64,000 bases of DNA from Ancylomarina sp. DW003 (GTDB lineage Bacteria > Bacteroidota > Bacteroidia > Bacteroidales > Marinifilaceae). The position numbers were made by a program, and so were the translations under genes. The notes under the pieces were generated by a model. The model was not told the DNA's origin and made no database searches. It saw only the letters and a list, made by a program, of their open reading frames with translations. Location of the stretch: assembly GCF_029029505.1 (NCBI RefSeq), contig NZ_JAKJSD010000019.1, positions 1 to 64,000 of the forward strand, written 5' to 3'. Positions 3,438-15,481 of this stretch are shown in pieces. Each line of letters opens with the position of its first letter. The first letter of the stretch is position 1.

Positions 3438-3956
3438 GTAATTAAAGAAAAAATGTGTTAAAAGGAACGGTATTCTGAATTGATTACGCCTTTATTTGTT
3501 AACCTAATGTTTGAAAAGTATGAATCTAAGATAATAATTGATACTTAAAACTCTTTTGTATGAATAAATGTTCAATTTATTTCTTAGTAAACGGTTATTG
3601 TCTTGTTGTAATTTTCACCCCTTAAGATAATTGTTTAAATTCAACATAAACACAAAGTTAGTTTTTAAATGTGTTGAAAATAAATCTAAGAACAGTTCAG
3701 TATATACAGGCTTTGCAGAGTGTTTTTCAACATGTTCATGATGTTGAAAAAAAACAATTTCTCCTATGTTCTAGTTTACAGACTTTTTCTTTATTAATAC
3801 TGATTAAAAACTGTTGTGAAGCATAGTTATTTAGACTAAATATGTATTTTCTACTTTTCTTTCTATTCGGCCTTTAAGCATTCTTTTATCTTGCTCTATT
3901 TCTTATCTTAGCAACGTTGTTTATGCAAGCGACTGAACATAATTTGAAAATTAGGA
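3438..3956. other. 519-base divergent intergenic region
   Basis: Lies between the UspA-like gene (minus) and the hydrogenase operon (plus), so it must carry both promoters. It is very AT-rich. The only clear structure is an 11-bp perfect inverted repeat (3723-3733 / 3741-3751). I found no TAnnTTTG element close to the first plus-strand gene and no RNA gene. Confidence 0.6.
3723..3751. repeat. 11-bp perfect inverted repeat upstream of hydrogenase operon
   Basis: TTTTTCAACAT and ATGTTGAAAAA separated by 7 nt, about 205 bases before the first gene of the hydrogenase operon. It could be an operator or a hairpin. No T-run follows, so a rho-independent terminator is unlikely. Confidence 0.55.
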
Positions 3957-4304
3957 ATGATAAAAGTCTCTCAAATAATTAATGATTTAAATGCACAGTT
4001 GGTCTGTGGTAATACAGATTTAAATCAGGATATAGATTTTGGTTTTGCTTCTGATCTCATGAGTGATGTCTTAACTATTGATTCTGATAATCTATTGTTG
4101 GTGACAGGTTTAAATAATTTACAGACGATAAGAACCTCTGAAATGTCGGATATTCCATACATATTATTTGTTCGCGACAAAAAAGCTTCTGAAGAAATGA
4201 AAAATCTGGCAGAAGAAAGTGGGATTACTATTTTAGAGTGTCGTTATTCAATGTTTCGCGCTTGTTCTATTTTGTGTAATATGGGTCTGGAGCCCGTTTA
4301 TTAA
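3957..4304 (+). CDS. DRTGG-domain protein, hydrogenase operon (copy 1)
   Basis: A 115-residue soluble protein. The first 60 residues (ISQIINDLNAQLVCG, then FGFASDLMSDVL) match the DRTGG fold found beside HPr-kinase-like and CBS proteins and in [FeFe]-hydrogenase operons. It is a homologue of the gene at 6096 in the same operon, which shares the SDLLSDVM-type core. No catalytic residues are evident. The family is presumed to bind a ligand or a partner. It is the first gene of a ten-gene run with gaps of only 9, 4, 2, 8 and 11 nt, so co-transcription is nearly certain. Confidence 0.75.
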   Translation: MIKVSQIINDLNAQLVCGNTDLNQDIDFGFASDLMSDVLTIDSDNLLLVTGLNNLQTIRTSEMSDIPYILFVRDKKASEEMKNLAEESGITILECRYSMFRACSILCNMGLEPVY

Positions 4305-4313
4305 TTCTGATGT

Positions 4314-4727
4314 ATGGATTTTAAATTTGATATAGAAGGAGGCAATTTTTCAAAAGCAGGGACTGCATCAAGCGACGTGAAGAAAGTGTTGAAGAAGTTG
4401 AATGTTGACCCAAAGCTAATTAAACGAATTGTTGTTTCGATATATGAGGCCGAAGTGAATGTTGTTGCTCATGCCTATGAAGGTGAAATGAATGTCTCAA
4501 TATTTCCGGAAAAAATAATAGTACGTATTGTTGATAAAGGGCCTGGTATTCCTGATATAGAATTAGCAATGCAGAAAGGGTATTCGACAGCCTCTCCTGA
4601 AGTTAGAGAAATGGGGTTTGGAGCAGGTATGGGCTTGCCAAATATAAAAAAGAATACGAATGAGCTAAATATTAAGTCAGAGGTTGGAGTTGGAACCGAA
4701 GTTGAACTAATTAACTATTTAAATTAG
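4314..4727 (+). CDS. RsbW-like GHKL ATPase (anti-sigma-factor/serine kinase type)
   Basis: A 137-residue stand-alone HATPase domain. Visible boxes are the N box EAEVNVVAHAY (about 48-58), G1 DKGPGIPD (about 75-82) and G2 GFGAGMGLPNIKK (about 101-113). No histidine phosphoacceptor domain is present, so it resembles RsbW/SpoIIAB anti-sigma kinases rather than a two-component kinase. In this operon it lies 4 nt upstream of the sensory-type hydrogenase. A role in relaying the hydrogenase's redox or H2 state to transcription is an inference from context. No cognate sigma or anti-anti-sigma (STAS) gene is in the window. Confidence 0.8.
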   Translation: MDFKFDIEGGNFSKAGTASSDVKKVLKKLNVDPKLIKRIVVSIYEAEVNVVAHAYEGEMNVSIFPEKIIVRIVDKGPGIPDIELAMQKGYSTASPEVREMGFGAGMGLPNIKKNTNELNIKSEVGVGTEVELINYLN

Positions 4728-4731
4728 AACG

Positions 4732-6093
4732 ATGGAGAAGCTGCCCTTTTATCACGCGCTAAAAGTTGTCGAAAACGTTTGTATTGGTTGTACACATTGT
4801 ATGAATGTGTGCCCCACAAAGGCAATTCGTGTGAAATCAGGAATTGCTGATATTGACAAGTATGCTTGTGTTGATTGCGGAGAGTGTTTAAAAGCTTGTC
4901 CTGTGAATGCTATAATAGTGGAGCAAGATGACTTTAATCAGATATTTAGCTTTAAACAAAGAGTGGCCTTGTTACCAACTGTGCTGTTAGGACAATTTCC
5001 TGACGATATTACTGAAGAACAGATTTATTCTGTTATTCATGATATGGGATTTACTCACGTTTTTGAGGTTGACGAGGCAGTCGATTTGCTGATTGAGGGA
5101 ACGAAAGAATATATGCGGAAGCATACTCAAATGAGACCATTTATTTCGAGTTTTTGTCCTGCAGTTGTTCGTTTGATACAAGTGAGATTTCCTTCTCTTG
5201 TTGAGAATATTGTGCGTCTAAAGCCTGTTGTTGATATTTCATCTCAATTTTATCGTAAGAAATTGGTTGATGAGGGGTTCAAGAATGAAGAAATAGGCAT
5301 TTTTTATATAACGCCATGTGCAGCTAAAATTGCATCAGTAAAATCACCAGTAGGCGAAGAAGAGTTGCTGATTGATGGTGTCATAAACATGGACTTTATT
5401 TATAATAAAGTCATGTTGAGTTTGAAGAAAGCGAATAAGGAAAAAGATGCGATTTCGAATCACAGGCATCTTTCGAAAACGAGTATTGAGTGGTCATTAA
5501 CCAATGGCGAGGCTTCTCAATATTCTGGTAGATGTTTAGCAATAGATGAGATTCACAATGTGATTGCATTTCTAGATAAGTTGGAGAATGAAGAGATCAC
5601 GGATGTTGATTTCTTAGAACTAAGAGCTTGTGACAGGTCTTGCGCTGGCGGCGTTTTGAGTACAGAAAATAGATTTTTAGCCGTTGAACGTTTGAGTAAG
5701 CGTGCTAAAAAAGATATAAAGCAGCAGAAAGAGACGGAAGAAATATATACGACTTATCGTCCCTATTTACTCGATAATATGGCAATTTCTGAAATTGAGC
5801 CAAGATCAATTTTGAGTTTGGATTCGGATATGATGATTGCCATGGATAAGATGAAGAAAATTCAGCGTATCATGAAAGTTTTACCCGGTATAGACTGTGG
5901 AGCTTGTGGTGCGCCTAAATGCAAAGTATTGGCTGAAGATATCGTTCAGGGAAAAGCCAAAATGACGCAATGTGTGTTCTTGCAAAAGATGCTCACAAAA
6001 GAAGAGTTAATTACCCCTCAGGAATCTTTTGATATATCAGAAGGTACATGGGGAAAAGAACGTTTTGAGAAAAAGACGATTAAAAATAGATAA
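4732..6093 (+). CDS. hydS: Sensory-type [FeFe]-hydrogenase (group C/D, HydS-like)
   Basis: A 453-residue iron-sulfur protein. Two N-terminal [4Fe-4S] ferredoxin motifs (CIGCTHCMNVCP and CVDCGECLKACP, residues about 17-57) precede an H-cluster domain with all three cysteine loops in non-catalytic-type form: L1 ISSFCPAVVRLIQ, L2 ITPCAAKIASVKSP, L3 LRACDRSCAGGV. The bifurcating enzymes have TSCCPGW, MPCxAKK and MxCPGGC instead. A C-terminal Fe-S motif (CGACGAPKC...C, about 384-415) follows. There is no PAS domain, unlike the described Thermotoga HydS. H2 sensing is family knowledge. Coupling to the flanking ATPases and DRTGG/PHP proteins is inferred. Confidence 0.85.
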   Translation: MEKLPFYHALKVVENVCIGCTHCMNVCPTKAIRVKSGIADIDKYACVDCGECLKACPVNAIIVEQDDFNQIFSFKQRVALLPTVLLGQFPDDITEEQIYSVIHDMGFTHVFEVDEAVDLLIEGTKEYMRKHTQMRPFISSFCPAVVRLIQVRFPSLVENIVRLKPVVDISSQFYRKKLVDEGFKNEEIGIFYITPCAAKIASVKSPVGEEELLIDGVINMDFIYNKVMLSLKKANKEKDAISNHRHLSKTSIEWSLTNGEASQYSGRCLAIDEIHNVIAFLDKLENEEITDVDFLELRACDRSCAGGVLSTENRFLAVERLSKRAKKDIKQQKETEEIYTTYRPYLLDNMAISEIEPRSILSLDSDMMIAMDKMKKIQRIMKVLPGIDCGACGAPKCKVLAEDIVQGKAKMTQCVFLQKMLTKEELITPQESFDISEGTWGKERFEKKTIKNR

Positions 6094-6095
6094 GA

Positions 6096-6434
6096 ATGAA
6101 GGTAAGTGATATTGTTGAAAAATTGGGTTTAAAAGTTTGTTCGGGAGAACAAGGCTTGAACAAAGAAATTGAAGGTGGCTATACATCAGATTTATTAAGT
6201 GATGTTATGGGGAATGCCGATGCAGACCAGGTGTGGGTAACACTTCAAACTCATAAAAATATCATGGCAATTGCTTCATTAAAAGAATTAGCTGCAATTG
6301 TGTTGGTTAAGGGCTACGAGCCAGAAGCTGATGCTGCAGAGCAAAGTAACGAGGAAGGGATTCCAATTTTGTCATCAGAAGAGGAAGCCTTTGAGTTGAC
6401 AGGAAAGCTTTATAAGCTATTGAGTGTTGAATAA
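6096..6434 (+). CDS. DRTGG-domain protein, hydrogenase operon (copy 2)
   Basis: A 112-residue paralogue of the gene at 3957. It has the same layout: VSDIVEKLGLKVCSGEQGL, then GGYTSDLLSDVM, a strand with QVWVTLQTHKNIMAIAS, and a C-terminal strand AIVLVKG. It starts 2 nt after the hydS stop, so it is translationally coupled. Two DRTGG proteins bracketing the sensory hydrogenase suggest a paired or heteromeric partner, which is only an inference. No enzymatic motif is visible. Confidence 0.75.
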   Translation: MKVSDIVEKLGLKVCSGEQGLNKEIEGGYTSDLLSDVMGNADADQVWVTLQTHKNIMAIASLKELAAIVLVKGYEPEADAAEQSNEEGIPILSSEEEAFELTGKLYKLLSVE

Positions 6435-6442
6435 CTGAAATC

Positions 6443-7180
6443 ATGAAAACGTTTCGAGTCGACCTACATACACATACAGTACTTTCTCCATGTGGAGATT
6501 TGGAGATGAGTCCGGTAAATATTGTAGAGAAGGCGAAAGAGCGAGGAATTGATGTTTTAGGCATAAGCGATCATAACTCAACTTTACATGCCCCTTTGAT
6601 TAAAAAGTTGGCAGCAAAAGAAAATATTGAGATTATGATGGGCGCAGAGGTGACAACCAAAGAGGAAGTACATTGTCTTTGCTTTTTTGAGACAGAAGAG
6701 AAGTTAGTTGTTTTTCAAAAGTATTTGGATAAGCATTTGCCACATATAGCTAATGATAGCGATAAATTTGGTTATCAGGTTGTGGTAAACGAGGAGGAAG
6801 AGATTTTAAATGAAGTTGAATGGTTATTGATTTCAGGTATAAATCAGAGTATTGATCAATTAGAGAAAAAGGTTCACGAATTGGATGGTTTGTTTATACC
6901 AGCTCATGTAAATAAGATGCAGGATAGTATAATCTCGCAACTGGGATTTATTCCCATCGATTTAAATGTTGATGCACTCGAATTGACACGACATATAAGT
7001 AAGGAAGCATTTTTAAAGAAGAATGCTTATTTGAAAAATAAAACATTTATAAAGAGCTCCGACGCTCATTGTATAGATTTAGTTGGAGAAGTTTATACCG
7101 AATTCATCATGAAGGAAGCCAATTTTAATGAAGTGAAAATGGCATTGAGAAACCAAGAGGGACGAAAGGTGAATTTTTAA
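6443..7180 (+). CDS. PHP-domain metal-dependent phosphoesterase
   Basis: A 245-residue PHP domain protein. Metal-binding motifs are DLHTHTVLSPCGDLEMSP (residues 6-23), GISDHNS (about 40-46), GAEVTTKEEVHCL (about 67-79), IPAHVNK (about 153-159) and KSSDAH (about 208-213), the order expected for PHP phosphoesterases. The likely reaction is hydrolysis of a phosphate ester or nucleotide, substrate unknown. It follows the second DRTGG gene by 8 nt. PHP genes accompany HydS/DRTGG genes in other [FeFe]-hydrogenase operons (family knowledge). It may make or remove a signal used by this module, which is inference. Confidence 0.8.
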   Translation: MKTFRVDLHTHTVLSPCGDLEMSPVNIVEKAKERGIDVLGISDHNSTLHAPLIKKLAAKENIEIMMGAEVTTKEEVHCLCFFETEEKLVVFQKYLDKHLPHIANDSDKFGYQVVVNEEEEILNEVEWLLISGINQSIDQLEKKVHELDGLFIPAHVNKMQDSIISQLGFIPIDLNVDALELTRHISKEAFLKKNAYLKNKTFIKSSDAHCIDLVGEVYTEFIMKEANFNEVKMALRNQEGRKVNF

Positions 7181-7191
7181 GAAGAAGAAAA

Positions 7192-7731
7192 GTGAGAGAC
7201 TTGTCAGAACATATCATGGATATAATTCAAAACTCAGTAAGAGCGAATGCAACTCTTGTTGAGCTTGAAATATTTGAGGATGAAAAGGCAGATATGTACA
7301 AATTGTTGTTTAAGGATAATGGTTGTGGCATGTCAGAAGGAGTATTAGCTAAGGTGGCTGATCCATTCTTCACATCCCGAACAACAAGAAAAGTTGGTTT
7401 GGGGATTTCACTATTGAAGCAAAATGCCGAACAGACTGGTGGAAGTTTAAATATTTGGTCTAAAGAAGGAGAGGGGACTCAACTTGAAGTCATTTTTTCT
7501 CATTCGAATATTGATAGACCAGTGTTAGGTAATATAGCCGAAACCATGATGCTGTTGGTTGGAGCTAATCCGGAAATGGATTTTTTGTATAAGCACACAA
7601 CTGCTGAAGGTGAATATGTGTTTGACACAAAAGAAGTAAAAGAAATTTTAGAAGGGGTGTCATTAAATGACCCTAATATTTTGGTTTATCTAAAAGAGAT
7701 GATAAACGAAAATATAAATACAATAATATAA
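7192..7731 (+). CDS. Stand-alone GHKL ATPase in hydrogenase operon
   Basis: A 179-residue protein starting at GTG 7192, 11 nt after the PHP gene. Boxes: N box DIIQNSVRANA (about 9-19), G1 DNGCGMSE (about 43-50), F box DPFFTSR (about 57-63), G2 VGLGISLLKQNA (about 68-79). These look like a histidine-kinase ATP lid, but the dimerisation/His-phosphotransfer domain is missing. About 65 C-terminal residues of unknown fold (GNIAETMMLLVGANPEMDF) follow. It differs from the RsbW-like ATPase at 4314, so the operon carries two distinct ATPase types. Its role in hydrogenase regulation is inferred. Confidence 0.75.
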   Translation: MRDLSEHIMDIIQNSVRANATLVELEIFEDEKADMYKLLFKDNGCGMSEGVLAKVADPFFTSRTTRKVGLGISLLKQNAEQTGGSLNIWSKEGEGTQLEVIFSHSNIDRPVLGNIAETMMLLVGANPEMDFLYKHTTAEGEYVFDTKEVKEILEGVSLNDPNILVYLKEMINENINTII

Positions 7732-7767: not shown

Positions 7768-8160
7768 ATGGCAAAAGTAAAATCTCTTGCAGACCTGAAG
7801 AAAATGAAAGAAGATCTTCAGTCGAAAATGGATCTTAGAGAAAAGAGTGATGCGCCAGATAGCATGGTGCAGGTAAAAGTAGGTATGGCTACTTGTGGAA
7901 TCGCTTCTGGTGCAAAAGAAGTGATGAATTTCTTTATCGAAGAAAGTGCTAAGAGAGGAATTTCAGCTGTTGTTACCCAAACAGGATGTATGGGCTATTG
8001 TTTTGCAGAACCAACTATCGAGGTAATTATGCCTGGTAAAGATCCAATCGTTTTTGGTGATGTTGATGTGAAAAGAGCTGATGAGATTATTGAGAAGTAC
8101 GTTAAGAATGGTGAGTTGGTTGATGGAATTATTCCTGTAAACTATAATACTATTGACTAA
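7768..8160 (+). CDS. Thioredoxin-fold [2Fe-2S] ferredoxin-like protein (HndB-like)
   Basis: A 130-residue protein resembling the HndB / Thermotoga TM1420 type. After a charged helical start (LADLKKMKEDLQSKM), it has VGMATCGIASGAKEV and TGCMGYCFAEPTIEV. Only three cysteines are present (about 43, 74 and 78) where four would ligate a [2Fe-2S] cluster, so cluster binding is uncertain. It precedes hydB by 21 nt and probably marks the start of the catalytic half of the operon. It may be an electron carrier or an assembly partner of the bifurcating hydrogenase. Confidence 0.75.
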   Translation: MAKVKSLADLKKMKEDLQSKMDLREKSDAPDSMVQVKVGMATCGIASGAKEVMNFFIEESAKRGISAVVTQTGCMGYCFAEPTIEVIMPGKDPIVFGDVDVKRADEIIEKYVKNGELVDGIIPVNYNTID

Positions 8161-8181: not shown

Positions 8182-9972
8182 ATGGAAAAGTATAAAATGC
8201 ATATTCTTATTTGCGGAGGTACGGGATGTCGTGCGTCTGAAAGTGAGCTTATTCAAACTAATTTAGAAGATGTTCTTAAGGCCAAAGGTCTAGAGGATGA
8301 AGTGCAGGTTGTGACCACGGGTTGCTTTGGTTTTTGTGAAAAAGGACCTATTGTAAAGATTCTTCCGGATAACACATTCTATATTGAAGTGAAGCCTGAG
8401 GATGCAGAAGAAATTATTGAGGAGCATATTGTAAAAGGACGCCAGGTGATGCGACTTCTTTACACAGATCCTGATAAGAAAGAAACTGTAAGTGATGCGA
8501 AAAACATGGGTTTCTATAAGAAACAAATTCGTATTGCTCTTAGAAACTGTGGATTTATTAATCCTGAGAATATTGACGAATATATTGCTCGTGAAGGTTA
8601 TGGTGCACTAGGTACGTGTTTCGAAATGACGCCACAGGCAGTTATCGATGTAATTAAAGAATCTGGTCTGCGCGGACGAGGAGGAGGAGGATTCCCAACT
8701 GGTTTGAAGTGGGAGTTTGCTTCTAAGAACGATGCTGATCAGAAATATGTGGTTTGTAATGCTGATGAGGGAGATCCGGGAGCATTTATGGACCGTTCAA
8801 TCCTTGAGGGAGATCCACACTCAGTACTTGAAGCGATGGCTATTTGTGGTTACACAATGGGCGCTGATTTGGGTGTGATTTATATTCGTGCGGAGTACCC
8901 ACTTGCAATTGAGCGTTTAAAGATTGCAATTGCTCAAGCTCGTGAATATGGTTTGTTAGGTAAGGATATTTTGGGTTCTGGTTTCAATTTCGACGTAGAA
9001 ATGCGTTATGGAGCTGGTGCTTTTGTTTGTGGTGAGGAAACTGCATTGATCCACTCTATGGAAGGTCTTCGTGGTGAGCCAACTGTTAAGCCTCCATTCC
9101 CAGCTGAATCAGGATATAATGGAAAGCCAACTAATGTAAACAATGTTGAGACATTTGCTAATGTTCCTGTTATCATCAACAAAGGTGCTAAGTGGTTTAG
9201 TGCAATTGGAACTGATAAGTCAAAAGGTACTAAGGTATTTGCTTTAGCAGGAAAGATCAATAATGTTGGTCTTATTGAGGTGCCAATGGGTACTACTCTT
9301 CGTGAAGTAATTTACGAAATTGGTGGTGGTATTAAAGATGGTAAGAAATTTAAGGCTGTTCAAACAGGTGGTCCTTCCGGAGGTTGTTTAACTGAGAAGC
9401 ATCTTGATACACCTATCGATTTTGATAATCTTATTGCTGCAGGTTCTATGATGGGATCAGGTGGTATGATTGTTATGGACGAAGACGACTGTATGGTTTC
9501 TATGGCAAAATTCTATCTTGACTTTACGGTTGAGGAATCTTGCGGTAAATGTACGCCATGTCGTGTTGGTAACAAGCGTCTTTATGAGATGTTAGATAAG
9601 ATTACTGAAGGTAAAGGAACTAAAGAAGACTTAGATTTATTACGTAACCTTTCTGGTGTAATAAAAGATACGTCTCTTTGCGGATTAGGTCAAACTTCTC
9701 CAAATCCAGTTTTATCTACTCTTGACAATTTCCATGATGAATATATTGCTCATGTTGAGAATCATAAGTGTACTGCTGGACAGTGTAAAGCATTGATGCA
9801 GTATGTTGTTGATCCGGAGCTTTGTGTTGGTTGTACGCTTTGTGCGCGTAACTGTCCGGTTGATTGTATTGCTGGAGAACGTAAGGAAGCTCATATTATC
9901 GACGTTGAAAAATGTATTAAGTGTGGTGCTTGTATGGATAAGTGTAAGTTTAACGCCATTAGCATACAATAA
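8182..9972 (+). CDS. hydB: Electron-bifurcating [FeFe]-hydrogenase subunit HydB (NuoF-like)
   Basis: The 596-residue flavin subunit of the trimeric NAD(P)-linked hydrogenase. An N-terminal thioredoxin-like [2Fe-2S] domain has CGGTGCRAS and TGCFGFCEKGP. The NuoF core has the FMN/NAD glycine loops GRGGGGFPTGLKWE and GAGAFVCGEETALI. A [4Fe-4S] site is ESCGKCTPCRVG with SLCGLG. The C-terminal ferredoxin domain has CVGCTLCARNCP and CIKCGACMDKC. Length and domain order match HydB/HndC. It transfers electrons between NAD(H) and ferredoxin/H2 with HydA and HydC in the cytoplasm. Confidence 0.93.
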   Translation: MEKYKMHILICGGTGCRASESELIQTNLEDVLKAKGLEDEVQVVTTGCFGFCEKGPIVKILPDNTFYIEVKPEDAEEIIEEHIVKGRQVMRLLYTDPDKKETVSDAKNMGFYKKQIRIALRNCGFINPENIDEYIAREGYGALGTCFEMTPQAVIDVIKESGLRGRGGGGFPTGLKWEFASKNDADQKYVVCNADEGDPGAFMDRSILEGDPHSVLEAMAICGYTMGADLGVIYIRAEYPLAIERLKIAIAQAREYGLLGKDILGSGFNFDVEMRYGAGAFVCGEETALIHSMEGLRGEPTVKPPFPAESGYNGKPTNVNNVETFANVPVIINKGAKWFSAIGTDKSKGTKVFALAGKINNVGLIEVPMGTTLREVIYEIGGGIKDGKKFKAVQTGGPSGGCLTEKHLDTPIDFDNLIAAGSMMGSGGMIVMDEDDCMVSMAKFYLDFTVEESCGKCTPCRVGNKRLYEMLDKITEGKGTKEDLDLLRNLSGVIKDTSLCGLGQTSPNPVLSTLDNFHDEYIAHVENHKCTAGQCKALMQYVVDPELCVGCTLCARNCPVDCIAGERKEAHIIDVEKCIKCGACMDKCKFNAISIQ

Positions 9973-9984: not shown

Positions 9985-11757
9985 ATGGAACAAATGATAA
10001 AATTAACCATTGATAATAAAGAGGTAGAGGTTGCTAAAGGCACCACTATGCTCGAAGCTGCAAAGCAGATTGGTGTTGAAATACCAACGCTTTGCCACAT
10101 GCACCTTGAGGATATGAATATTGAGCATAAGCCTGGTGGATGTCGTATTTGTGTTGTTGAAGTAGACGGTAGAAGAAATCTAGCGCCTTCATGTAACTCA
10201 AAGTGCGAAGCTGGAATGAATATCAAAACTCACTCTATGAGAGTTTTGAACGCTCGTAAAACCGTAATGGAATTGATGCTTTCTGATCATCCGTTTGATT
10301 GTTTAGTTTGTGCGAAGTCAGGAAATTGTGACTTGCAAACTACAGCTCAAAATATGGGTGTTCGTGAGATTCACTACCAAGGTGAGCAATCAACTTATAA
10401 GGTAGATTATTCTCCATCGATTATCCGTGATATGGATAAATGTATCATGTGTCGTCGTTGTGAAACGATGTGTAACGATGTACAAACTGTTGGAGCTCTT
10501 TCTGCTGTTAACCGTGGATTCGAATCAGTAGTCGCTCCAGCTTTTGAGATGGATCTTGAGAAATCTACTTGTACTTATTGTGGTCAGTGTGTTGCTGTAT
10601 GTCCTACAGGTGCACTTACTGAAAAAGATCATACGAATCAGTTGATTAGAGACCTTGCTAACCCGAATAAGACTGTGGTAGTTCAAACGGCTCCTGCTGT
10701 ACGTGCTGCTCTAGGTGAAGAGTTTGGTATGGAAGCTGGTACTTTGGTAACGGGTAAAATGGTTGCTGCGCTTCGTAACTTAGGTTTCGACAGTGTGTTT
10801 GATACTGATTTTGCTGCCGATCTTACTATTATGGAGGAAGGTACTGAGTTGCTTCAGCGTCTTGATGCTCACCTAAAAGGTGACAAGGATGTGAAGCTTC
10901 CTATTTTGACTTCATGTTGTCCAGGTTGGGTGAATTTCTTCGAGCATCACTTCCCAGAGATGAAAGAGATTCCTTCAACGGCTCGTTCTCCTCAGCAAAT
11001 GTTTGGTCCTATTGCTAAAAACTATTTGGCAAAAGAAATGGGAATCAAGCGTGAGGATATGATTGTTGTTTCTATAATGCCATGTTTGGCTAAGAAATAC
11101 GAATGTCAGCGTGATGAGTTTAAGGTTGATGGTGATCCTGATGTGAATTATTCTATCTCAACTCGTGAATTAGCTAACTTGATTAAGCAAGCTAATATGG
11201 ATTTCGTTACTCTTCCTGAAGAAGATTTTGATAATCCATTGGGAGAGTCTACAGGTGCTGGTGTAATTTTCGGTGCTACTGGTGGTGTTATCGAAGCTGC
11301 AACTCGTACTGCTTACGAAGTATATACTGGAAAAACACTTGAGAAAGTTGATTTCAACGCACTTCGTGGTATGGAAGGTATTCGTAGTGCTAAAGTTGAT
11401 TTTGATGGACTGGAGTTAAATATTGGTATTGCTCATGGTTTGGGTAATGCTCGTAAGCTTCTTGAAGAAGTAAGAGATGGAAAATCACAATATCACGCAA
11501 TTGAAATCATGGCTTGTCCTGGTGGATGTATTGGTGGTGGTGGTCAGCCATTGCACCACGGTGATGCTTCTGTTTTAGGTAAGCGTGCTGCTGCTCTTTA
11601 TCGTGAAGATGAAGGTAAAGCAATTCGTAAGTCTCATGAAAACCCATACATTATTAAGTTGTATGAAGAGTTCTTGGGTAAGCCTTGTGGTGAATTGTCG
11701 CATAAATTGCTACATACTCACTATTTCGACAAGAAAAATGAAATCGAAATTGAATAG
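9985..11757 (+). CDS. hydA: [FeFe]-hydrogenase catalytic subunit HydA
   Basis: A 590-residue catalytic subunit that reduces protons or oxidises H2. An N-terminal [2Fe-2S] plug domain comes first (CHMHLEDMNIEHKPGGC, APSCNSKC). It is followed by the His-ligated cluster HPFDCLVCAKSGNCDLQ, two [4Fe-4S] motifs (CIMCRRCETMC and CTYCGQCVAVCP), and the H-cluster loops L1 TSCCPGW, L2 MPCLAKKYE and L3 MACPGGCIGGGG. All H-cluster cysteines are present, so it should be active. It is of the HydA/HndD type used in electron-bifurcating complexes. The maturases HydE, HydF and HydG are not in this window. Confidence 0.95.
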   Translation: MEQMIKLTIDNKEVEVAKGTTMLEAAKQIGVEIPTLCHMHLEDMNIEHKPGGCRICVVEVDGRRNLAPSCNSKCEAGMNIKTHSMRVLNARKTVMELMLSDHPFDCLVCAKSGNCDLQTTAQNMGVREIHYQGEQSTYKVDYSPSIIRDMDKCIMCRRCETMCNDVQTVGALSAVNRGFESVVAPAFEMDLEKSTCTYCGQCVAVCPTGALTEKDHTNQLIRDLANPNKTVVVQTAPAVRAALGEEFGMEAGTLVTGKMVAALRNLGFDSVFDTDFAADLTIMEEGTELLQRLDAHLKGDKDVKLPILTSCCPGWVNFFEHHFPEMKEIPSTARSPQQMFGPIAKNYLAKEMGIKREDMIVVSIMPCLAKKYECQRDEFKVDGDPDVNYSISTRELANLIKQANMDFVTLPEEDFDNPLGESTGAGVIFGATGGVIEAATRTAYEVYTGKTLEKVDFNALRGMEGIRSAKVDFDGLELNIGIAHGLGNARKLLEEVRDGKSQYHAIEIMACPGGCIGGGGQPLHHGDASVLGKRAAALYREDEGKAIRKSHENPYIIKLYEEFLGKPCGELSHKLLHTHYFDKKNEIEIE

Positions 11758-11852: not shown

Positions 11853-12332
11853 ATGGCAAAAATAAAATTAGCAAAAGACAAGATTGAAAAGCTTGTTGAA
11901 ATTTGCAAATCATTTAATAATGAAGGCAGCGAGCTGATTAATGTACTTCATAAGGCGCAAGAAAATTTTGGTTATCTTCCTGCTGAAGTTCAAGAGGTTG
12001 TTGCTCGTGAGCTTGGAGTTTCTGTAGCACACGTGTATGGCGTTGTTACTTTCTATTCTTTCTTTACTATGGTTCCTATGGGTGAATTCCCTATTTCAAT
12101 CTGTATGGGTACAGCTTGTTATGTGCGTGGTGCTGAGAAGGTCTTAGAAGAGTTTAAAACACAGCTTAAGGTGCCGATTGGTGAAACGACTGAAGATGGT
12201 AAATTTTCGATCTCATGCCTGCGTTGTGTAGGTGCTTGTGGTTTGGCTCCGGTTGTAACAATTGGTGAGCGTACCTATGGCCGTGTGGCTGCAGGTGATG
12301 TTGCTGACATTCTAAAAGAGTATCAAAACTAA
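11853..12332 (+). CDS. hydC: Electron-bifurcating hydrogenase subunit HydC (NuoE-like)
   Basis: A 159-residue NuoE-family subunit with a helical N-terminus (NVLHKAQENFGYLPAEVQEVVA) and a thioredoxin-like [2Fe-2S] domain (CMGTACYVRGAEKVL, then SCLRCVGACGLAPV). It forms the smallest subunit of HydABC. It is separated from hydA by 95 nt, longer than the other gaps in the operon, and that spacer carries degenerate TGAGAT/CTCATATC-like sequence. A strong terminator follows 22 nt after the stop. Confidence 0.93.
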   Translation: MAKIKLAKDKIEKLVEICKSFNNEGSELINVLHKAQENFGYLPAEVQEVVARELGVSVAHVYGVVTFYSFFTMVPMGEFPISICMGTACYVRGAEKVLEEFKTQLKVPIGETTEDGKFSISCLRCVGACGLAPVVTIGERTYGRVAAGDVADILKEYQN

Positions 12333-12354
12333 GTTTTGATTTAGTAAGATAATG

Positions 12355-12385
12355 AAGCCTTCGGATTTTCCGAAGGCTTTTTTTG
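12355..12385 (+). terminator. Rho-independent terminator of hydrogenase operon
   Basis: AAGCCTTCGG, a 5-nt loop, CCGAAGGCTT, then a T-run. A 10-bp perfect stem immediately after hydC. Confidence 0.9.
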
Positions 12386-12493: not shown

Positions 12494-13786
12494 ATGTCCT
12501 TTAAAAAGTATTTAAAAACTTATTTTTCCTATTCCGCTTCGGAAAGGAGGAGCCTAATAGTTCTCCTGACTGTAGTTGTTTTATTATTTGGGTATCCGTT
12601 TTTTATTCCTGATGATAAAGTGAAGGTTTGGGATGCAGATTCAATTAAGCAAAAGCAACTGGATAGCTTGCTACTTGCAATGTATTTGAAGGTTGAAAAG
12701 AAAGAGAAGGAAAAGAATGTTTATTCTCGGTTTGTATTTGATCCTAATGAGACTGATAGTTTAAGCTTAATGACTTTGGGTTTTTCTGCATATCAAGCTA
12801 GAAATTTGTTGAGTTACATAAAGAGTGGTGGGCGTATCAACACTGCAATAGATTTGCAAAAGGTTTATGGTATGACTGATGATTTGTATCAAAGCCTTAA
12901 ACCTTATGTTAATATATCATCTAAGTCTAAATTAGATAGATCTAAATTTGTAAACATTCAGCCGTTTAACCCCAATAAGTTAGATTCGTTAGGATTTATA
13001 GAGTTGGGTTTCTCAAAACTTCAAACTCAAAATATTCTTAGTTTCAGAAGAAAATCTGGTTGCTTTCGTGAAAAGAAAGATTTAATGAAGATATACGGAA
13101 TTGATTCGATGGAGTATAGTCGAGTTAAAGAATATGTGGACCTGCCTTTAAATTTTGAAAGTACGCCGTATAATTTGTTTGTGTTTAATCCTAATGAGAT
13201 AGGTGAGAGCGAATGGGATAGTTTGGGTGTAGATTCAAGAGTCGCGGCCAGAATTCAAAACTACTTGTCAAAGGGAGGTTGTTTTGTGAAGGCTGAAGAT
13301 TTAGGTAAAATTTATGGTTTTGATTCTTTGAAGTTTGCTGAATTGCTGCCATATATACAAATAACTAAAAAAGAGAAAAGGGAGATTTCAAAAATAGATT
13401 TGAATGAAGTCGACTCCAGTCAATTAGTTAGCTTGTCAGGTATTGGACCATATTTTTCTCAGCGTATATTAGATTATCGCAAAAAATTAGGTGGATTCTT
13501 AAGCTTAGATCAGTTAAGTGATATTAGAGGGATGAGATTAAGCCGAATAGATAGTTTGAAACCTTTCTTATTTGTCAATACAAAATCTCTACGACAAATC
13601 AATATTAATGAAGCAAGTGTTGAAGAGTTAAGTTTTCATCCCTATATAAGTTATCAGGAGGCATCAGATATTGTTCGCTTGAGAAAGAGAAAAAAACAGA
13701 TTGTTGATATAAATGTGCTCCTTAAGAAGAAAATAATCCGAGAATCTAACTTTAAGCGATTGGAGCCTTACCTTATTTTGGAGTAA
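12494..13786 (+). CDS. Membrane-anchored multi helix-hairpin-helix protein
   Basis: A 430-residue protein with one N-terminal transmembrane segment (SLIVLLTVVVLLFGYPFF, about 20-37) followed by five tandem ComEA-like helix-hairpin-helix modules of about 60-70 residues. Each opens with an N-P-N or N-E/A motif and ends with DL-KIYG-Y or similar: FVFDPNETDS, QPFNPNKLDS, FVFNPNEIGE, KIDLNEVDSS, ININEASVEE. The fourth has the most canonical SGIGPYFSQRI hairpin. HhH repeats bind DNA or mediate protein contacts. Whether this one works in DNA uptake is unknown. It stands alone between the hydrogenase operon and rpsU. Confidence 0.75.
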   Translation: MSFKKYLKTYFSYSASERRSLIVLLTVVVLLFGYPFFIPDDKVKVWDADSIKQKQLDSLLLAMYLKVEKKEKEKNVYSRFVFDPNETDSLSLMTLGFSAYQARNLLSYIKSGGRINTAIDLQKVYGMTDDLYQSLKPYVNISSKSKLDRSKFVNIQPFNPNKLDSLGFIELGFSKLQTQNILSFRRKSGCFREKKDLMKIYGIDSMEYSRVKEYVDLPLNFESTPYNLFVFNPNEIGESEWDSLGVDSRVAARIQNYLSKGGCFVKAEDLGKIYGFDSLKFAELLPYIQITKKEKREISKIDLNEVDSSQLVSLSGIGPYFSQRILDYRKKLGGFLSLDQLSDIRGMRLSRIDSLKPFLFVNTKSLRQININEASVEELSFHPYISYQEASDIVRLRKRKKQIVDINVLLKKKIIRESNFKRLEPYLILE

Positions 13787-13884
13787 TTTGGATTGAAATG
13801 TGCTTTTTGCTTGTTAAGAATCGTCTAATTACCTGACTTTTGCATTAGATGCAATTAATTTTAAGGTAATTGGTCAGATTTTTA

Positions 13885-13892
13885 TAAATTTG
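13885..13892 (+). promoter_or_regulatory. Candidate -7 element for rpsU-xerC-hpf
   Basis: TAAATTTG fits the Bacteroidetes TAnnTTTG -7 motif, 70 nt upstream of rpsU. The matching -33 TTTG is weak (TTTA about 22 nt upstream), so confidence is moderate. Confidence 0.4.
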
Positions 13893-13961
13893 TTTGAAAT
13901 ATCGTGAATGAATTAATAAGTTTGCGGCTCATTTAGAAATAATTAAATAAAAGAAGAAACT

Positions 13962-14153
13962 ATGATTATTATTCCTATGAAGGAAGGCGAAAACATTGAA
14001 AGAGCCTTAAAAAAATTCAAAAGAAAATTCGAAAAGACTGGTGTGATCAAAGAATTACGTGGAAGACAAGTTTACATTAAGCCTTCTGTAAGAAAGAGAA
14101 AAGAAAAGATTCATGCAGTTTATGTTCAGCAAATGCAATTGAACGAAGATTAA
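13962..14153 (+). CDS. rpsU: 30S ribosomal protein bS21
   Basis: A 63-residue basic protein with the bS21 pattern: MKEGENIERALKKFKRKFEK, then a C-terminal RKRKEKIHAVYVQQMQ. In Bacteroidetes bS21 helps sequester the anti-SD tail of 16S rRNA (established for Flavobacterium), which is relevant to the SD-bearing hpf genes here. The order rpsU, xerC, hpf, tRNAs, tuf is typical of the phylum. Only a weak AAGAAG-type purine stretch precedes the start. Confidence 0.95.
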   Translation: MIIIPMKEGENIERALKKFKRKFEKTGVIKELRGRQVYIKPSVRKRKEKIHAVYVQQMQLNED

Positions 14154-14226
14154 TTTCTTTTGAAAAAGGTTTCAGTATCTTATTTTTTTTGTAATTTAGT
14201 TAATCTAGACTATGAATTAAAAGTGT

Positions 14227-15111
14227 ATGAGATATAAGGAATCTTTTCTGTCTTATTTACAATACGAGAAACGATACTCCAAACATACTTTGGTATCTTA
14301 CGATTGCGACTTAAGTCAATTTTTTTCTTTTTTATCATCCTATGGGATTGAAGAGTCTGAAATTGTTGATTTGAATTTCAAAGATGTTAGAAAGTGGATC
14401 GTTTTTTTAATGAATGACGGCTGCTCAGCCAGAACTGTAAATAGGAAATTATCTTCTTTGAAATCCTTTTTTAAATATTTGTTGAGAGAATCGCTAATAC
14501 AACAAAATCCGATGGATAGAGTTGTTGGGCCTAGGCAAGGGAAGAAGCTTCCTGATTTTGTTGCCGAGCACAGTATGCGATTGCTTCAGGAAATTGATTT
14601 TGGTGAAGGATTCGAAGGGATTCGAGACAGATTAGTTGTTGAATTGTTTTATCATACTGGCATGCGTTTATCAGAATTGATGAATTTAAAAGTGTCGAGT
14701 TTTGATCGTTCAGCATCTGTTGTTCGAGTTTTAGGTAAAAGAAATAGGGAGAGAATTATTCCTGTTAGTAGTAATCTCGAAACACTTCTTGATGAGTATC
14801 TGGAGCAGAGGTTTTTACTTTGTTCTGATGAGGATGGTTTTTTGGTTTTAACCAGCCAGGCGAAACCTGCTTACGAAAAATTGTTGTACAGAATCGTGAC
14901 AAAACATTTGTCAAAGATCACAACGCTTTCAAAAAAGAGTCCTCACGTGTTGCGACACACATTTGCAACACATTTGCTTAATAATGGAGCTGAGTTGAAT
15001 GCTATAAAAGAGTTGTTGGGACATTCTAATTTGTCTGCAACTCAAATATACACTCATACAAGCTTCGAGAGGTTAAACGATATTTATAAACAGGCTCACC
15101 CCAGAGCATAA
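14227..15111 (+). CDS. xerC: Tyrosine recombinase XerC/XerD
   Basis: A 294-residue site-specific recombinase. A SAM-like N-terminal core-binding domain (SYLQYEKRYSKHTLVSYDCD) precedes the catalytic domain with R in HTGMRLSEL, K in VLGKRNRERI, HxxR in HVLRHTFATHLL, H in LLGHSNLS and nucleophile Y in QIYTHTSF. All catalytic residues are present. Length and location between rpsU and hpf fit the chromosomal Xer that resolves dimers at dif. It is unlikely to be a mobile-element integrase because the neighbourhood is core. XerC versus XerD cannot be settled from sequence alone. Confidence 0.88.
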   Translation: MRYKESFLSYLQYEKRYSKHTLVSYDCDLSQFFSFLSSYGIEESEIVDLNFKDVRKWIVFLMNDGCSARTVNRKLSSLKSFFKYLLRESLIQQNPMDRVVGPRQGKKLPDFVAEHSMRLLQEIDFGEGFEGIRDRLVVELFYHTGMRLSELMNLKVSSFDRSASVVRVLGKRNRERIIPVSSNLETLLDEYLEQRFLLCSDEDGFLVLTSQAKPAYEKLLYRIVTKHLSKITTLSKKSPHVLRHTFATHLLNNGAELNAIKELLGHSNLSATQIYTHTSFERLNDIYKQAHPRA

Positions 15112-15116
15112 AACTT

Positions 15117-15121
15117 GGAGG
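15117..15121 (+). promoter_or_regulatory. Strong Shine-Dalgarno of hpf copy 2
   Basis: GGAGG 7 nt before ATG 15129, between the xerC stop and the hpf start. It matches the arrangement in front of the other hpf gene. Confidence 0.75.
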
Positions 15122-15128
15122 ATAGAGT

Positions 15129-15428
15129 ATGAAAGTAAACATTCAGGCAGTCGGTTTCAATGCTGATGTTCAGTTGGAAGAATTTATCACCGGAAGAGTC
15201 GATAAATTGCTTAAGCTAGATGATGACGTGACAAGCGTAGAAATCTTTTTGAGAACTGAAAAACCATCGGTTGTAGAAAATAAAGAAGTAGAGATAAAAT
15301 TTAATATCCCGGGAGGTGATATATTTGCACAAAAGCAAAGCAAAACTTTTGAAGAAGCCGTTGATTTAGCGTCTGATGCGTTAAAGCGCCAGATCACTAA
15401 GCGTAAGGAAAAGCTTCGTGGAAAATAA
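15129..15428 (+). CDS. hpf: Ribosome hibernation promoting factor (HPF/RaiA family), copy 2
   Basis: A 99-residue short HPF. NIQAVGFNADVQLEEFI, then VTSVEIFLRT, KEVEIKFNIPGGDIFA and FEEAVDLASDALKRQITKRKEK follow the same order as the copy at 25-312. It binds the small ribosomal subunit and inactivates ribosomes under starvation (family knowledge). It is the last protein gene of the rpsU-xerC-hpf group. Linkage with rpsU plus the strong SD suggests its translation could respond to bS21 supply, which is inference. Confidence 0.92.
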   Translation: MKVNIQAVGFNADVQLEEFITGRVDKLLKLDDDVTSVEIFLRTEKPSVVENKEVEIKFNIPGGDIFAQKQSKTFEEAVDLASDALKRQITKRKEKLRGK

Positions 15429-15449
15429 TTGGAAAAATTATTTGATAGT

Positions 15450-15481
15450 TTTGTTATATAGGTAAAATGTTTTTACATTTG
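15450..15481 (+). promoter_or_regulatory. Promoter of tRNA-tuf operon
   Basis: TTTG at 15450-15453, 20 nt, then TACATTTG at 15474-15481: a consensus Bacteroidetes primary-sigma promoter. A 9-bp hairpin (15482-15490 / 15518-15526) lies just downstream, before tRNA-Thr. Confidence 0.75.

Follow-up and report, generated by a model that had tools for sequence, protein, structure and literature searches.

In the 64,000-nucleotide stretch of Ancylomarina sp. DW003 analysed here (the window; the source genome is 4.84 Mb), a set of six genes at positions 3957–7731 is co-oriented with a complete HydABC operon, in which a ferredoxin-like gene, HydB, HydA and HydC follow. Judged by its variants in related genomes, the set is built from two pairs of a small DRTGG protein and an adjoining ATPase, accompanied by a predicted PHP phosphoesterase and by a sensory-type [FeFe]-hydrogenase (HydS) that is inherited together with the others and yet is dispensable. 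The reading that we favour, with a probability of about 0.42, is a redox or H2 relay in which these two pairs would tune an NADH/ferredoxin-linked enzyme, here HydABC. The genes are called D1 and D2 (DRTGG proteins), RsbW (the SpoIIAB-like ATPase), HydS, PHP and GHKL. Their open reading frames (ORFs; 115, 137, 453, 112, 245 and 179 amino acids, aa) all lie on the + strand with spacers of 2–11 bp:

3957–4304, + strand: D1, DRTGG protein, 115 aa, pairing with RsbW
4314–4727, + strand: RsbW, SpoIIAB-like GHKL ATPase/kinase (activity predicted from Pfam and residues), 137 aa
4732–6093, + strand: HydS, PAS-less sensory-type [FeFe]-hydrogenase (Pfam, motifs), 453 aa
6096–6434, + strand: D2, DRTGG protein (Pfam), 112 aa, pairing with GHKL/PHP
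6443–7180, + strand: predicted PHP metallophosphoesterase (PHP and PHP_C in Pfam), 245 aa
7192–7731, + strand: GHKL ATPase, histidine-kinase-like (HATPase_c in Pfam), 179 aa

An earlier note, made from these letters, had described six tightly spaced genes ahead of the hydrogenase subunits, namely a PAS-less sensory-type HydS with its H-cluster cysteines, an RsbW-like anti-sigma ATPase, a second GHKL ATPase, two DRTGG paralogues and a PHP enzyme. This description is accurate, and the observation is confirmed in a stronger form than first stated; two points are refined, in that the small ATPase labelled RsbW is closest to SpoIIAB and that relatives may have the set apart from HydABC.

HydS matches Fe_hyd_lg_C together with two N-terminal 4Fe-4S motifs and a C-terminal FeS domain, and no PAS domain is found among the 18 Pfam families matching the window protein at E ≤ 0.1. 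In 86 aligned HydS sequences (our own copy being counted twice) the H-cluster cysteines C142 and C196 are invariant, and C300 and C304 are present in 85/86, the exception being a gap in locus L073 (fetched loci and genomes carry L and G numbers). The residue preceding the first H-cluster cysteine, Cys299 in CpI, is replaced by Phe (75), Tyr (9), Ser (1) or Ala (1), and the position of the CpI-type Met353 is occupied by Thr (80), Ser (5) or Ala (1), that is, by Ser/Thr in 85/86. A C-terminal Cx2Cx4Cx16C motif lies at residues 389–414; its cysteines and those of the N-terminal 4Fe-4S motifs are each kept in 83–85 of the 86 sequences, the misses being gaps (L027, L062, L073, L078) except for C20, which is His in L089 and Arg in L088. 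The nearest relatives, from Ancylomarina and a Marinifilaceae metagenome-assembled genome, are 91–92% identical. By its motifs HydS thus fits the PAS-less group D (M2e) of putative sensory [FeFe]-hydrogenases, sharing with TamHydS the two N-terminal 4Fe-4S motifs, the missing Cys299, Ser/Thr in place of Met353, the Cx2Cx4Cx16C motif and the lack of PAS, as far as the available sections of the TamHydS papers describe them (PMC8163306, PMC10407848, PMC13104023). The group D label rests on these motifs, since an apparent Bacteroidales homologue from Petrimonas is annotated as HydDB group C1 in the accessible part of its source (PMC7768429).

The two ATPases belong to different Pfam families, HATPase_c_2 for RsbW and HATPase_c for GHKL, and no phospho-acceptor domain was matched by Pfam in the latter. 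The best NCBIfam model for RsbW is TIGR01925 (SpoIIAB; 57.9 bits, versus 29.2 and 25.4 for the RsbW models, all far below the equivalog cut-offs), and its closest chain in the PDB set is the anti-sigma F factor SpoIIAB (E 2.5e-11). Residues E45, N49, D74, G76, G78, G103 and G105 are present in 89/89 sequences and G107 in 88/89, with a gap in L048; the protein therefore carries the catalytic Glu and Asn and the G1/G2 glycines by which SpoIIAB/RsbW anti-sigma kinases are recognised, and its competence as a kinase is supported as far as residues can tell. The catalytic residues of RsbW, PHP and GHKL are nearly invariant across the loci. An argument against sigma binding, built on Arg20 of SpoIIAB (which we take to contact both sigma and antagonist), was dropped: this residue aligns with Ser19 of RsbW in 23/23 sequences (HMMER) at a low-confidence end, a shift of five places pairs it instead with position 14 (Arg 7, Lys 6, Asn 6, His 3, Ser 1; n = 23), and the alignment is ambiguous there.

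Both small proteins are assigned to the DRTGG family by Pfam PF07085 and by fold, D2 scoring 26.6 bits, over the cut-off of 25.2, and D1 just under it (23.8 bits); the two match each other with a profile E of 9e-21. The second-best fold match of D1 is the CBS-DRTGG region of a pyrophosphatase. No STAS chain appears among the fold matches listed for D1, which has no bearing on the idea of a hidden STAS fold, and the alignment with the DRTGG region of E. coli Pta is too weak to judge whether the S-D-L-M-S motif is specific to the module. In PHP the residues that we take to form the metal site (H9, H11, D43, H44, E69, H77, H155, D207 and H209) are each kept in 80/81 sequences, the misses being truncated ORFs (L060, L018). 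By fold, PHP comes closest to phosphoesterases that act on nucleic acids and nucleotides (EndoQ, RNase AM and the nucleotidase 2yb1); the small phosphate ester that the earlier note had proposed as a possible signal is unsupported, nothing having been found in its favour.

The grouping of these genes is conserved. One scan of genome contigs gave 73 loci, 72 with a HydS-type protein and one (L079) without; the 72, together with L080 (Subdoligranulum), L081 (Parabacteroides distasonis), the window and its own copy L006, make up 76 rows, many of them from close relatives, and the Clostridia are represented by one locus, L080, an unannotated record. D1 and RsbW accompany HydS in each of the 72 related loci whose contig reaches far enough, and chance is therefore not a plausible source of the grouping. 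Across the rows D1 is present in 74/76 and RsbW in 75/76 (the misses, L027 and L048, are contig ends), and D2 and PHP in 70/76, where L049, L062 and L078 are contig ends and the pair is absent despite sufficient room in L057 (2.7 kb downstream), L069 and L073. GHKL is present in 55/76; it is absent with at least 3 kb of downstream sequence in L031, L035, L041, L052, L054, L069, L070 and L072, although in L070 PHP lies at the contig start and GHKL is possibly only cut off. Same-strand gaps within the module have medians of 4–10 bp. In L073 (9980–10900) HydS is truncated, D2-PHP is absent and GHKL follows directly, which may stem from misassembly or from a deletion. Additional genes are inserted within the module, in the RsbW/HydS or the PHP/GHKL gap, in L052 (4421–9957), L054, L025 and L026.

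The same pattern holds in whole genomes. A single set of 247 Bacteroidales genomes (completeness 90% or more, our own included, and related, so that they are not independent trials) was searched four times, with E thresholds of 1e-60 for HydS, 1e-22 for RsbW, 1e-8 for the DRTGG family (D1 profile) and 1e-35 for PHP. HydS was found in 79/247 genomes. RsbW was found in 83, namely all 79 of these plus G028, G081, G131 and G134; the DRTGG family in 86, the 83 RsbW genomes plus G072, G187 and G235; and PHP in 81, comprising all of the 79 except G062, G130 and G157, the four genomes without HydS, and G064, whose PHP is a fragment at a contig start. Among the HydS genomes, RsbW and the DRTGG family thus occur in 79/79 and PHP in 76/79, and the co-conservation on which the earlier note had staked its proposal is borne out. 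Joint presence or absence is seen even within single genera (G096 with versus G181 without; G114 with versus G007 without). The module need not be contiguous: in G119, G161, G133, G109, G192 and G001 (26 kb) D2-PHP is separated from D1-RsbW-HydS, with a possible break where the two are on separate contigs; the same may hold for G005 and G086 (contig breaks), and G091, G176 and G245 have D2-PHP upstream of D1.

In four genomes the module is present without HydS. In L084–L087, D1, RsbW, D2, PHP and GHKL stand together (D1 of L087 being cut by a contig end) and HydS is missing between RsbW and D2; these genomes have 5, 4, 6 and 3 matches to PF02906, all in ORFs of at least 481 aa and mostly at least 568 aa, and none of them in the RsbW-D2 gap. 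The catalytic residues of RsbW are unchanged. Two of these modules, those of L085 and L087, are followed by HydABC; in L084 the contig stops behind GHKL, and a different [FeFe]-hydrogenase set lies upstream. A tree of 72 D1+RsbW sequences places L084 and L085 within an otherwise HydS-bearing clade (support 0.979) and L086 within a broader clade of 28 members (0.872, with 0.26–0.46 closer to the tip), a pattern for which at least two losses of HydS would be the simplest reading; L087 branches deep (0.651) and could represent an older, HydS-less state. Because four genomes keep RsbW, DRTGG and PHP without it, HydS is, on gene content, dispensable and a removable input to the module.

The catalytic hydrogenase subunit is also replaceable. 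In 37/45 loci with room for it, HydB is encoded downstream of the module, on its strand and no more than 9 kb away; the earlier claim of a set joined to HydABC stands for the window and for most relatives, but not as a fixed partnership. All six genes occur without an adjoining HydABC in L081, and D1-RsbW-HydS is kilobases away from D2-PHP-GHKL in L071 and L074. In L086 the module is followed by a ferredoxin-like subunit, HydB, a molybdopterin subunit in the place of HydA and a HydC-like gene; the molybdopterin oxidoreductase (12746–15460, 904 aa, NuoG-like N-terminus) is formate-dehydrogenase-like by its domains. The large subunit beside HydB is NuoG-like, with weaker molybdopterin matches, in L088 (2087–4441) and L089 (13518–15815). 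These three loci rule out HydABC as a fixed partner, and HydA, too, is replaceable beside the module by this gene content.

Judged from gene order, natural variants further resolve the set into a D1-RsbW pair next to HydS and a D2-GHKL pair next to HydB, each made up of a DRTGG protein and an ATPase. The gap between D1 and RsbW is at most 60 bp in 72/74 rows, and the two are fused as one ORF of 282–283 aa in L088 (10367–11215, − strand) and L089 (8625–9470, + strand). Downstream of these fusions lies a diverged HydS and upstream an extra DRTGG gene, and no PHP or GHKL was matched in the stretch. D2 and GHKL form a stand-alone pair in L091 (9382–10274) and L092 (8321–9213), surrounded by lepA-like and YqeY-like genes; both genomes also encode [FeFe]-hydrogenases. 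In L112 and L097 the two genes are separated by 2–4 bp. In L080, D1-RsbW-x-HydS-D2-PHP and HydC-GHKL-ferredoxin-HydB-HydA are divergently oriented, and GHKL adjoins the ferredoxin-like and HydB subunits both in Bacteroidales and in Subdoligranulum.

Transcription appears to be under separate control, at least in relatives with Rex-like sites. A Rex-like operator with one mismatch precedes D1 in 15/73 upstream regions (shuffle p 0.005–0.015 each) and one with up to two mismatches in 25/73 (p up to 0.07), 24 of these 25 starting 72–170 bp before D1. A rex-like gene lies 196–314 bp upstream of D1 in nine loci, and gene and operator (1–2 mismatches) stand together directly before the module in L036, L037, L040, L043, L045, L046, L049, L059 and L076. 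In L038 and L039 the gene lies at a distance of some 6 kb, and L084 and L090 have it close to the module; the one copy tested has PF06971 and CoA_binding domains. The pattern TGTGA-N6-TCACA would, we assume, also fit CRP/FNR-type sites, and the assignment to Rex is favoured because the rex-like gene adjoins. Two studies, in their available sections, report that Rex binds ahead of the equivalent five-gene hyd operons, Athe_1295-1299 in C. bescii (electrophoretic mobility shift assay) and Clo1313_1885-1881 in C. thermocellum (DNA affinity purification sequencing) (PMC6391272, PMC8457756). Rex control of the window operon is not supported, the best match in the window having four mismatches (p 0.91) and the rex-like gene being located elsewhere in the genome. 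Elements at −33/−7, which we take to be of the housekeeping Bacteroidota type, precede D1 in 12/73 loci, versus 0.8 expected.

In the relay that we favour, HydS would meet H2 at its H-cluster and change conformation, and this conformation would gate the SpoIIAB-like kinase RsbW acting on D1 as the input pair. D2 and GHKL, encoded beside the ferredoxin-like subunit and HydB, would form the output pair and alter the function of the NADH-linked HydB core; PHP would reset the relay, most simply as a D1/D2 phosphatase, and transcription of the operon would be set separately (Rex-type in some relatives). Four elements of this scheme are inferred: that the signal is H2, that RsbW transfers phosphate to D1, that PHP is the phosphatase and that the HydB core is the target. 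Action at the protein level on the ferredoxin-HydB core is suggested because transcription seems to be separately controlled and because the constant neighbour of GHKL is ferredoxin-HydB and not HydA. Two observations weigh against such a relay: 8/45 loci have no HydB nearby on the module strand, and G001 (L112, a 1.8-Mb genome) has the module with HydS while no other PF02906 protein was found in it, an assembly gap being possible. A bolder form of the same scheme, which we consider doubtful, would be partner switching with every classical part except the kinase swapped, DRTGG standing for STAS, PHP for PP2C and an [FeFe]-hydrogenase serving as plug-in ligand sensor, in which two DRTGG-ATPase pairs in series act directly on a HydB-type NADH/ferredoxin core, hydrogenase or formate-dehydrogenase-like.

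The earlier interpretation, a HydS-centred sensor signalling by partner switching, is right in outline and partly supported: its parts and their co-conservation stand, but HydS is dispensable and no STAS, PP2C, sigma-factor or DNA-binding gene is found among the ten operon proteins (Pfam). A transcriptional version, in which RsbW, as anti-sigma factor and kinase controlled by D1 and HydS, would release a sigma factor or some other regulator that acts on hydABC, draws on the SpoIIAB likeness and the kept kinase residues, and a route from HydS to a Ser/Thr kinase is proposed for the PAS-bearing HydS of R. albus in the accessible part of PMC5707799. Three STAS genes elsewhere in the genome make a distant partner possible; one is stand-alone (117 aa, beside an RNase Z-like gene), and there is a second RsbW-like ATPase (134 aa, beside YbeY/GidA-like genes), none of these genes being linked to the operon (neighbour names were read from translations). 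Nevertheless, because the operon is devoid of STAS, PP2C and sigma genes, a sigma switch was demoted as the lead, and the housekeeping-type elements before D1 also count against it; we regard it as rather unlikely and lean towards the kinase/DRTGG relay on the HydB core. If instead the ATPases, DRTGG proteins and PHP assembled, activated or repaired a HydB-type complex, HydS being a low-rate partner and no sensor, the position of GHKL beside ferredoxin-like and HydB subunits, even with HydA replaced (L086), would be explained, and a non-HydS PF02906 protein is indeed found in 24/25 genomes tested. Hydrogenases persist, however, in the module-free genomes G007 and G181, and in G001 the module occurs with HydS where no other PF02906 protein was found; such an accessory role seems improbable to us. 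Least probable is a nucleotide second-messenger module with DRTGG binding and PHP degrading the nucleotide. The CBS-DRTGG match of D1, presumably solved with AMP and a dinucleotide, and the nucleotide-directed relatives of PHP would agree with it, but the nucleotide site of that pyrophosphatase is in its CBS part, no nucleotide synthase was found in the operon (Pfam), and PHP is missing in G062, G130, G072 and G235.

Known systems resemble the module in part. Group D sensory genes upstream of trimeric hydrogenases, often with a histidine or serine kinase between, were already known (PMC3561251, as far as its available sections go). The TamHydS operon is likewise placed upstream of a trimeric bifurcating hydrogenase and has a histidine-kinase-like ATPase as neighbour, but its other reported neighbour is an AraC-type regulator, and DRTGG, PHP and a SpoIIAB-like pair are not named in the available account. 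The PAS-bearing group C HydS of T. maritima, R. albus and Thermoanaerobacterium (hfsB) is similarly a proposed H2 sensor near [FeFe]-hydrogenases with a kinase/phosphatase relay, but has PAS and a serine phosphatase where DRTGG and PHP are found here (PMC8163306, PMC5707799, PMC11837493, in their accessible parts). SpoIIAB/RsbW-STAS-PP2C switching shares the GHKL serine-kinase fold with its ATP-binding and catalytic residues and a small adjoining partner; here DRTGG takes the place of STAS and the operon is without PP2C and sigma factor, so that it is not a canonical module. In six Clostridia rows of table 6 of PMC3561251, the visible gene tags place group D HydS five numbers from the nearest trimeric-hydrogenase gene, leaving room for four genes, which by extrapolation from L080 may be D2, PHP, HydC and GHKL. 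No prior description of a DRTGG/SpoIIAB-like/PHP module with a hydrogenase was found in the openly searchable literature, an earlier gene-order account elsewhere (e.g. Calusinska 2010) being possible, and its dissection into two DRTGG-ATPase pairs appears to be new. TamHydS changes secondary structure under H2, and its signalling partners are posed as an open question in the available text of a 2026 study (PMC13104023). Co-inheritance and fusions nominate D1-RsbW first and D2-GHKL second as such partners, which brings the question within reach of kinase and binding assays on small soluble proteins; operons that lack HydS or have HydA exchanged provide natural controls. If the relay is true, the DRTGG domain would gain a signalling role, and fermentative H2 output in Bacteroidota a handle.

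The remaining features of the operon are the following:

3828–3842, + strand: perfect 7-1-7 palindrome TATTTAGACTAAATA, upstream of D1
3904–3911, + strand: candidate −7 box TATCTTAG of the operon promoter, by match to the consensus TAnnTTTG that we take for Bacteroidota
7768–8160, + strand: thioredoxin-like [2Fe-2S] ferredoxin of the hydrogenase operon, 130 aa (2Fe-2S_thioredx, sub-threshold)
8182–9972, + strand: HydB, NuoF-like subunit (profile matches)
9985–11757, + strand: HydA, group A6 NADH-dependent catalytic subunit (NF040763, 901 bits, cut-off 765)
11853–12332, + strand: HydC, NuoE-like subunit (profile matches)
12354–12380, + strand: terminator-like hairpin in the sequence, closing the ten-gene run

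With NF040763 above its cut-off and HydB and HydC present, the enzyme is assigned as an NADH-dependent group A6 HydABC. The record of L081 (NZ_OY725779.1) is labelled as a plasmid of Parabacteroides distasonis; with gyrA and further chromosomal genes on it, it is probably a piece of chromosome. The upstream palindrome was rejected as the mark of a regulon, since its core is not enriched genome-wide (54 sites at up to one mismatch, the reversed control giving 85). The Ancylomarina relatives L007, L008, L009 and L013 have the 13-bp core unchanged; four exact copies occur in the genome, among them the copy at this operon and another that precedes a 2-oxoacid-dehydrogenase E2-like gene, and a double near-copy stands ahead of an isocitrate-dehydrogenase-like gene (L108).

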